Shown piece after piece: positions 10,541-13,477 of a DNA stretch of 40,477 bases. Where the stretch lies: NCBI GenBank assembly GCA_024231775.1, contig JAAEQG010001106.1, forward strand, positions 1 to 40,477, in the 5' to 3' direction. Origin of the DNA: a bacterium. GTDB lineage: Bacteria; Planctomycetota; Phycisphaerae; UBA1845. Below the pieces are notes generated by a model, which was not told where the DNA came from, searched no databases, and saw nothing but the letters and a program-made list of their open reading frames with translations. The position numbers and the translations under genes were made by a program. Position 1 is the stretch's first letter; each line of letters opens with the position of its first letter.

Positions 10541-11698
10541 TTACTTGGAGGCCGTCTTGACGTTGACCTTCCAAGGGAAGCTCATTTCGGTGAGTGTTTT
10601 GGCCAGGCTGCTGGCGGCGAGTGGGTGAGAGGTAAGCGAGGCTTCGCGCTGGCCAGATTGGGTGATCGAGATGGTGGCGGTGGCTTTGGTGGCTTCGATA
10701 AAGAGTTCGCCGCCGCGTTTCAGGTCGTACTCGCGGCTGGCGGCGTACTTCTTGAAGACCATGCGCCGGTCGGTGAGGACCAGTCCGGCGGCTCCACGCT
10801 CGGCCCGGGCGAACTCCTGGTCGGCGTAGAATCCCATGAAGTCCTCGGATTCCTCCGGATGGAACCACTGGGAAATCTTGCTGCGGACGGCGAAGGGCAG
10901 GCGTTGCCACTCGTTGTCGCGTTGCTGGCGACCGGCGACCAGGAGTTTCTGATACGCCGGCGATCCGCGTCCGCCGTTGTTGCGATAGAATTCGAGAGCG
11001 ATGGTGAGGTTGGCGATCCCGATCTGGCAGAACTCGGCGCCGTCGTGCATGAGCGTATGGGTGGTGATTTCACCCACCGCACTGCAATGATCGCAGACGA
11101 AGTAGGGCATGGGCTCGTTGAAGGGAGGGGGGAGCACGTCGAGGGATTCGAGATGGTTGAGCCAGTCGGCTTTGTACTTGAAGAGCATCTCGTCCAGTCG
11201 ACGGGTGGTTCGCCGCTCCATCTCCCGGATGTTGAAGGCATCCTGGCGGGGGAGCTTGGCTGCCCAGACGAGCAGATGGCAGAGCAGGTCGGTCTTGCTC
11301 AGGCAGTTCACACATCGGTGGGGGAAGGACGCCCGGAGGTCCGCATCCCGGAGCAGATCGATCGGGAACTCGAAGTACGCCCCCAACTCGTCGATGCGTT
11401 CGAAGCTGATCCGCGGTTCGCTGGGGGGGGGCTTGGCGGTGAGGTTGGCGTGGGTGGTGGCCTCCACCGGCTTGGGCGCGGGACTTTCGAGCACTCCGGT
11501 GGCCCCGAGCACACTGGCGCTGGCTGGATCGTCCTCGGTGACCCATCCGCAGATGGTTTCATCGTCGATAGGATGGTCTTCGGCGATGCGGAAGCCTTGC
11601 CCGCATTTCTTGCAGCGTGCTCGGGCGCCCATGCGCTCCGCAGGGACCCGGTACTTCTGGGAGCAGCGTGGACAGCATACGACGGCGACGTCGGACAT
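10541..11698 (-). CDS. Zinc-ribbon protein with possible PH-like C-terminus
   Basis: 385 residues, not assignable to a known function. The N terminus is an MJ0042-type zinc ribbon (C9, C12, C29, C32 in CPRC...CKKC). A Pro/Ala-rich linker follows (about 60-95). A second CxxC pair set lies further on (CVNC 129-132 and CDHC 202-205), which could form another zinc site bracketing a helical insert. Residues about 290-385 contain GLVLTDRRMVFKKYAASREYDL, like the strand pair of bacterial PH/GRAM-like domains. ATG 11698 is chosen because the ribbon begins there; GGAG and AGG lie just upstream. A TTGACG-18-TATACT promoter sits at 11782-11811. It is divergent from the phosphomutase gene. No signal peptide or membrane helix is seen, so it is probably cytoplasmic. 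Confidence 0.7.
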   Translation of the reverse strand: MSDVAVVCCPRCSQKYRVPAERMGARARCKKCGQGFRIAEDHPIDDETICGWVTEDDPASASVLGATGVLESPAPKPVEATTHANLTAKPPPSEPRISFERIDELGAYFEFPIDLLRDADLRASFPHRCVNCLSKTDLLCHLLVWAAKLPRQDAFNIREMERRTTRRLDEMLFKYKADWLNHLESLDVLPPPFNEPMPYFVCDHCSAVGEITTHTLMHDGAEFCQIGIANLTIALEFYRNNGGRGSPAYQKLLVAGRQQRDNEWQRLPFAVRSKISQWFHPEESEDFMGFYADQEFARAERGAAGLVLTDRRMVFKKYAASREYDLKRGGELFIEATKATATISITQSGQREASLTSHPLAASSLAKTLTEMSFPWKVNVKTASK

Positions 11699-11781
11699 GC
11701 CTGTGATTCTCCACCATGCGTCGGCTGGCCCGCCGAAGAATCGGAGCTGGGGGCTCGGATCCCCCCAACCACCCAATCCGT

Positions 11782-11893: not shown

Positions 11894-13477
11894 ATGGCTT
11901 CGCCCGATGCGAAATCCGAGCAAACGTACACCCGATATTGTCCGGATCAACCTCGAGTGATGATCTCGGATGCGGTCTGCGCCGGGCGCCGTCGAGCGAA
12001 CTACCATGTCTGCGCGGAGTGTCAGTTCAATGACGACCGTACCGGACGTGGCAGCATGTGGCTAGCGGCGGTCCCGCGCAAGCCGGAAGAGAAGACCAAT
12101 ATGATCGAGCAGGTGTTCAAAGCGTATGACGTGCGGGCGACGTATCCGGACCCGCTTGACGAAGACGTGGCTTGGAAGATCGGTTACGCCGCGGCGACGT
12201 TCTTACGGTCTTCTCTGCGCGGGATGGAGCGTAGCGATCCCAGCGTGCGGACGCTGGTGGTCGGGCGGGACATGCGCAAGAGCAGCCCCTCCCTGGCGGA
12301 GGCGCTGATCGAGGGAGTGCGGTCCACCGGCATGGACGTCATCGACATCGGCATGATCGATACGCCGCAGGTCTACTTTGCGGTCAACCATTTGCCCAGT
12401 TGCGGGGGCGTGCAGACCACCGCCAGCCATAATCCCGCCCACTACAACGGCTTCAAGATCTCCGGTCAGCGGGGTGTTCCGGTGGGAGCGGACACGGGTT
12501 TGAACGACATCTGCGCCGTGGCCAAGAACCTGGCCAGGCACGAGTCGACTCAGCGCGGGAAGTTGACGACGCGCGATCTGTCGAGTGAGTACAAGGCGTT
12601 TGTGCGCGGGTTCCTGCAGACACCGCGCAAGCTGAAGATCGTGGTGGACGGCTCCAACGGCATGGCGGGGATGTGGGTGCCGATCCTGTTTGGGGATGTG
12701 CCCGAGGTGGAGCTGATCTGCCTGAACATGGAGACCAACGGGGAGTTCGTGCACGAGCCCAATCCCCTGGTGGAGTCGAACCTGCGCCAGTTGCGTGAGC
12801 AGGTGCGCGCGTGCGGGGCTGACTTCGGAATCTGCTTCGACGGGGATGCGGATCGGTTGATTGTGGTTGACGAGCAGGCGGAGATCGTCTCCTGCGACAT
12901 GCTCACGGCGCTGTTGGCTCCGCAGTTCCTGTCTCGCCACGCCGGGGCGACGGTGGTTTACGATCTGCGTTCGAGTCGCGTGGTCGCGGAAGAGATCCGG
13001 AAGGCGGGCGGGGTGCCCAAGCGAGAGCGGGTGGGGCACGCCTACATGAAGAAGGCTCTTGCGTCATCCAAGGGCGTCTTCGGCGGTGAGCTTTCTGGCC
13101 ACTTCTACTTCGCGGACAATTTCTACTGTGACTCGGGTATGCTGGCGCTGGTTCACGTGATCAACACGGTGAGCTCCCTGGACCGTCCGATGAGCGAACT
13201 GATCGCTCCTTTGCGGCGCAAGTCTCAGAGTGGAGAGCGCAACTTCGAAAACGAGGAGAAGGACGCGGCGATCAAGCACCTCGCCGAGTTGCACAAGTCC
13301 GCAAAGGTCGATTTCCTTGACGGAATCACCGTCGAGTACGCGGACTGGTGGTTCAACGTACGCAAGTCGAACACCGAACCGCTGCTGCGGCTGAACCTCG
13401 AGGCGGAAACCCCCGAACTCATGGAAGAGAAGATCACCGAGGTCGCTCGACACCTCGGCGAACCCGTTCAACACTGA
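11894..13477 (+). CDS. Phosphomannomutase/phosphoglucomutase with Cys-rich N-terminal extension
   Basis: Interconverts hexose 6- and 1-phosphates, supplying GDP-mannose or UDP-glucose for envelope polysaccharide. The phosphoserine loop TASHNPAHYNGFK, the Mg loop FDGDADR, the sugar loop GGELSGHFYF and the phosphate-binding RKSNTEPLLR are all present. Counting from the internal ATG 12101 puts the catalytic Ser at 109 and the length at 458, matching AlgC-type enzymes. An in-frame 69-residue extension begins at ATG 11894, which has AAGGA nine bases upstream. It contains ISDAVCAGRRR and VCAECQFND plus another Cys, like a small metal-binding knuckle. I favour the long form; the short form from 12101 remains possible because GGAAGAGAAG lies before it. 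Confidence 0.93.
   Translation: MASPDAKSEQTYTRYCPDQPRVMISDAVCAGRRRANYHVCAECQFNDDRTGRGSMWLAAVPRKPEEKTNMIEQVFKAYDVRATYPDPLDEDVAWKIGYAAATFLRSSLRGMERSDPSVRTLVVGRDMRKSSPSLAEALIEGVRSTGMDVIDIGMIDTPQVYFAVNHLPSCGGVQTTASHNPAHYNGFKISGQRGVPVGADTGLNDICAVAKNLARHESTQRGKLTTRDLSSEYKAFVRGFLQTPRKLKIVVDGSNGMAGMWVPILFGDVPEVELICLNMETNGEFVHEPNPLVESNLRQLREQVRACGADFGICFDGDADRLIVVDEQAEIVSCDMLTALLAPQFLSRHAGATVVYDLRSSRVVAEEIRKAGGVPKRERVGHAYMKKALASSKGVFGGELSGHFYFADNFYCDSGMLALVHVINTVSSLDRPMSELIAPLRRKSQSGERNFENEEKDAAIKHLAELHKSAKVDFLDGITVEYADWWFNVRKSNTEPLLRLNLEAETPELMEEKITEVARHLGEPVQH

Follow-up and report, generated by a model that had tools for sequence, protein, structure and literature searches.

Enzymes of the α-D-phosphohexomutase superfamily are defined by a four-domain PGM_PMM architecture and four active-site loops, and the superfamily includes GlmM as well as the phosphoglucomutases of PDB entries 5bmn and 1k35, which we take to be Xanthomonas citri PGM and Pseudomonas aeruginosa AlgC. 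The window analysed here, a stretch of planctomycete DNA of 40,477 nucleotides, encodes a protein with this architecture and all four loops, preceded by an N-terminal extension that carries a small Cys-bearing module. The gene thereby couples a central carbohydrate enzyme with an undescribed domain that stays conserved where the enzyme does not. We favour, with a probability of roughly one in two, a reading in which the module acts in its own right, as an independent interaction domain, probably structured by zinc, at the end of a flexible tether; selection may be preserving this little domain rather than the enzyme.

The two PDB entries share the four domains and the four active-site loops with the window protein (phmmer E values of 5.8e-84 for 5bmn and 5.7e-63 for 1k35), but their alignments, from residues 69 and 72 of the window protein, begin only after the extension. 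PF02878, PF02879, PF02880 and PF00408 all match above cut-off, from residue 73 onwards. Judged by its intact motifs, the window's mutase appears to be catalytically competent. It lies below every NCBIfam equivalog cut-off, so that no specific substrate class can be assigned: the best-scoring model, PRK09542, gives 441.5 of 618 bits, and the other PMM/PGM equivalogs, AlgC and CpsG, are not reached either (285 of 801 and 282 of 600 bits). GlmM belongs to the same superfamily, but the window protein scores 210 bits against TIGR01455, below the cut-off of 447.6.

Reading frame and N-terminal extension

The gene is a single frame of 527 amino acids from ATG 11894 to the stop at 13477, in which 69 in-frame codons (11894–12100) precede Met70 (12101). 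The Shine–Dalgarno-like sequence AAGG lies approximately 9 bases 5′ of ATG 11894. Upstream of this ATG the frame is still open, as far as TTG 11855, and the exact start is therefore probable rather than proven. In a whole-protein search of 60 relatives, essentially all of the full-length homologues (about 40) align from query residue 4–12, which indicates that the extension belongs to the protein. Between the window and its two congeners, pN/pS of the extension is approximately 0.2, at synonymous sites that are near saturation, and the extension evolves as protein between species.

Met70 itself is not conserved, a Met of any kind occurring in the 12 residues before FKAYD in only 58 of 108 aligned rows. 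Translation from 12101, with the upstream codons an untranslated open frame in GC-rich DNA, would accord with the frame that stays open to 11855 and with a purine-rich stretch preceding Met70. The chance of this is next to negligible, given the low pN/pS, the unconserved Met70, the conservation of residues 14–50 at the protein level across the phylum and the existence of the module as separate genes; for the family, an untranslated frame over residues 1–69 is rejected on conservation. An earlier note on this DNA had described a Cys-bearing frame running 69 codons upstream of 12101, as the frame and Cys16, Cys29, Cys40 and Cys43 bear out. That note had also held that its proposal would fall if the four Cys, searched for in relatives, were not conserved there; they are conserved across Planctomycetota.

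Table 1 Features of the phosphohexomutase gene in the window
Feature	Position	Strand	Evidence
N-terminal extension, Met1–Asn69	11894..12100	+	Frame reading; relatives align from residue 4–12
Cys module core, residues 14–50	11933..12043	+	Alignments and structure model: strands 14–16 and 19–24, helix 26–34, then C40-x2-C43 knuckle
Cys16, invariant in 114 modules	11939..11941	+	114-row profile
Cys29, at least 90% conserved, His in Planctomycetia-like clade	11978..11980	+	114-row profile
Arg32, invariant in 114 modules, inside predicted helix	11987..11989	+	114-row profile
Cys40-x2-Cys43 knuckle, both Cys invariant in 114 modules	12011..12022	+	114-row profile
Linker, residues 51–61, presumably flexible	12044..12076	+	Model (pLDDT <50); length and sequence differ among relatives
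Phosphohexomutase body, Pfam PGM_PMM I–IV	12083..13474	+	Pfam; confident model
Catalytic serine loop TTASHNP (Ser178), intact	12416..12436	+	Motif alignment
Mg-binding loop DGDADR (316–321), intact	12839..12856	+	Motif alignment
Sugar-recognition loop GGELSGH (397–403), intact	13082..13102	+	Motif alignment
Phosphate-binding loop RKSNTEP (490–496), intact	13361..13381	+	Motif alignment

The Cys module and its putative metal site

The consensus of the module is YxRYCPGExxIxISDAVCxGRRRxNYPKCxGCQFNDDE, with basic residues in the helix (GRRR, RQR; an R-R/Q-R pattern) and around the knuckle, and a strongly acidic stretch, FNDDE, after it. Four conserved Cys/His ligands at fixed spacing, the mark of a structural zinc finger, are found in all 42 modules of the near set, with C-x12-C-x10-C-x2-C spacing exact throughout. 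Cys-to-His replacement is a usual exchange at zinc ligands, and a structural metal site fits the alignment because a large Planctomycetia-like clade has His in place of the second Cys. We consider it probable, with good confidence, that the module binds a structural metal.

In GTDB genome contigs, a scan for the module gave 56 loci, nearly all titled Phycisphaerae or Planctomycetota; a single locus titled Alphaproteobacteria shares its gene order with its planctomycete relatives. Of 392 planctomycete genomes searched with the 114-row profile, 102 have the module; the search sampled Planctomycetota, many of the genomes are metagenome bins, and several locus sets were gathered by way of the module, a bias in favour of conserved modules. 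The searches of viral contigs found no relative, and those of plasmids nothing meaningful.

AlphaFold2 modelled the full window protein with a mean pLDDT of 92; the module reached approximately 85, the mutase was confidently predicted and the linker was disordered. Modelled in isolation, the module had a mean pLDDT of 70 overall and of 80–89 in its core, with two strands and a helix. Foldseek with this model detected no fold neighbour in the PDB, a sequence search of the PDB gave no match at a meaningful E value, and searches of Pfam, NCBIfam and PHROGs gave nothing above any cut-off. Titles and abstracts on planctomycete phosphomannomutase with zinc, on bacterial phosphomutase pseudoenzymes and on zinc-finger fusions yielded nothing relevant. 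On the evidence of its alignments, the module is an undescribed small domain, real and strongly conserved.

The nearest described counterparts of the module are small four-Cys bacterial zinc-binding domains (zinc ribbons and related forms), which likewise have four Cys including a Cys-x2-Cys knuckle and resemble the hairpin and helix of the model. The module differs from them in matching no Pfam, NCBIfam or PHROG family or PDB fold, and in its arrangement, C-x12-C-x10-C-x2-C, which places the second putative ligand within the helix beside the invariant Arg.

Outside the fusions, the module occurs in several other architectures. In other planctomycete families, stand-alone proteins of approximately 62–137 residues carry a divergent form, CPxR...LIxHxISxxxCxxRQxxxYHKCxxC, with longer spacing before the second Cys; in 11 of 20 stand-alone loci, a xylose-isomerase-like TIM-barrel gene of the same strand lies a short way upstream, in most cases as the immediate neighbour. 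In two genomes the module stands ahead of PEGA repeats in very long frames (L156 from 7004 and L157 from 4029), which are open over 2332 or more residues in L156 and 1982 in L157.

Mutase decay and loss with the module kept

An alignment of 107 fusion proteins and the window protein was scored for the four active-site motifs, a mutase being called decayed if at least two of them were broken. All four are intact in 83 rows, including the window, and at least two are broken in 22 of the 107 fusions, in which, for example, TASHNP is changed to TGGRHP, DGDADR to SPDGSL, and SNTEP is lost. Within the window's order, the intact set (n = 54) has an identity of 63.5% in the module and 62.4% in the mutase, and the decayed set (n = 14) 65.5% and 44.3%, respectively. 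On trees built without the motif columns, parsimony gave 5 state changes for the 39-row set (at least 3 of them forced by well supported branches) and 8 for the 107-row set (at least 6 forced); the second count was scored at the Ser position only and so misses some decayed rows. These counts indicate that decay of the mutase happened repeatedly. Pfam mutase domains I–III still score in three loci (L038, L043 and L130). Two proteins of approximately 400 residues (L225:5344-6549 and L226:5293-6495) have the Cys/His module followed by a remainder that matches no Pfam mutase model, and possibly represent the far end of the decay.

PGM5 (aciculin) is an animal pseudoenzyme of the phosphomutase family, and the planctomycete proteins resemble it in that the mutase fold outlasts the catalytic residues. 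Unlike PGM5, they decay recurrently, in bacteria and with a Cys module attached, and the likeness is a general one.

In two further genomes (G008, locus L031; G020, locus L032), the module is encoded as a protein of 72–73 residues with no mutase behind it. Both genes adjoin a divergent TolC-like gene, the one that lies beside the fusion in 20 loci, and this position suggests a deletion of the mutase that spared the module; pN/pS for the pair is 0.28. Live mutase, dead mutase and no mutase are thus found as natural before-and-after sets in one order, and the sets make the route from enzyme to pseudoenzyme, and the part of the partner domain in it, directly testable. About 100 proteins, many presumably annotated only as phosphomannomutase, gain a second function to be sought, and for the decayed ones that annotation is probably wrong.

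The fusion mutase is damaged in 11 genomes (several motifs are broken in ten of them, the Ser loop alone in G047), and every one of these has a further PGM_PMM_II protein besides the GlmM-like one or, in G047, an 818-residue one. Among 29 genomes whose fusion is intact, only 5 have such an extra protein (11/11 versus 5/29, Fisher p = 2e-6, kinship ignored). In a phylogeny-aware test the association is not significant, the independent pairs being too few; the phylogenetically independent contrasts that differ in the trait all run in the same direction, extra mutase with decay. The association is accordingly not put forward to prove that selection was relaxed. One plausible history, though an unproven one, would be that a replacement mutase ended the need for catalysis and that the mutase half then drifted or was lost, with the module staying.

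Relatives without the fusion (G004, G008, G011–G015, G018, G020, G021, G032 and G033) mostly have a single mutase-family protein of approximately 780–890 residues and no GlmM-like one. In the window's genome, G000, the fusion is the sole PGM_PMM_II match and a separate GlmM was not found in the whole assembly; its congeners G001 and G002 each have, besides the fusion, a separate match of GlmM-like length at approximately 31% identity. The single match in G000 may reflect an assembly gap or an enzyme with double duty. One GlmM-like match elsewhere (G030:C57:8640-9932) contains an in-frame TAA.

Proposed function and gene neighbourhoods

Most likely, the extension would hold one structural Zn2+ through four Cys (in one clade, through three Cys and a His) within a predicted β-hairpin, a basic helix and the Cys-x2-Cys knuckle, and would be connected to the mutase by the flexible linker. 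The module would take no part in phosphoryl-transfer chemistry; it would serve for docking to another protein or to a nucleic acid, a partner that the stand-alone forms presumably bind as well, and confidence in any particular named partner is low. In the window, a working enzyme of PMM/PGM type would be positioned or gated through the fusion. Elsewhere the mutase would have turned into a pseudoenzyme, which may act as a scaffold or sense sugar phosphates, or would have been deleted with the module kept, apparently always in genomes that, among those checked, hold another phosphomutase. More tentatively, and with some doubt, the proteins could make up a family for signalling or scaffolding that spans the planctomycete phylum and is built around a new Cys4 domain; it would have captured a metabolic phosphomutase that repeatedly became a pseudoenzyme sensor, the window representing the still-catalytic state.

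The earlier note had proposed a metal-binding or redox regulatory module. A Cys module joined to a sugar-phosphate enzyme is indeed present, and the His clade fits a structural metal; the notion of an enzyme switch fares worse, as the module is equally conserved where the mutase active site is lost or the mutase is absent, and control of catalysis therefore cannot be what it does in general. A switch that acts in cis and responds to redox state or metal is conceivable for the live enzymes, in that the window and most relatives keep all four active-site motifs, full-length homologues carry the module and, in one other family group, an intact fusion is clustered with a UDP-sugar decarboxylase-like gene and a flavodoxin-like reductase. 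We regard it as distinctly unlikely, because of the equal conservation on dead mutases and without any mutase, and because the replacement of Cys29 by His across a whole clade, as far as the alignment can tell, argues against a disulfide switch.

A nucleic-acid-binding zinc finger would make the protein a regulator whose mutase half senses sugar phosphates, catalysis being ancestral or a second role. The invariant Arg32 in the basic helix and the basic residues near the knuckle are in keeping with this, as is the repeated loss of catalytic residues from a fold that is kept; the acidic stretch after the knuckle, the lack of similarity to any known DNA- or RNA-binding family and the absence of a common target or operon make it unlikely all the same. 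Coordination of an iron–sulphur cluster by the four Cys, as an electron-transfer or sensor unit, is very improbable: Cys/His ligation is found in some iron–sulphur proteins too, but one Cys-x2-Cys and two single Cys, 12 and 10 residues apart, resemble a zinc finger more than a ferredoxin motif, and one stand-alone form reaches only 16 bits with the PorD/KorD ferredoxin model, for which the cut-off is 60.

Neighbourhoods, based on simple ORF calling, vary among the forms. M16 peptidase genes, one or two of them, come after the fusion in 32 loci from the window's order (L046, L049, L062 and L071 among them), with an alanyl-tRNA-synthetase-like gene next in several; fusions with a dead mutase lie near holA. 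With M16 peptidases, the UDP-sugar decarboxylase-like gene or holA as neighbours, a single operon accounting for all forms is rejected. The window has no M16 neighbours, and its next gene encodes a convergent SppA-like protease. On the other side, the divergent neighbour (10541–11776, minus strand) encodes a protein whose start carries CxxC pairs (CCPRCSQKYRVPAERMGARARCKKCGQGF), a zinc-ribbon-like motif unrelated in sequence to the module.
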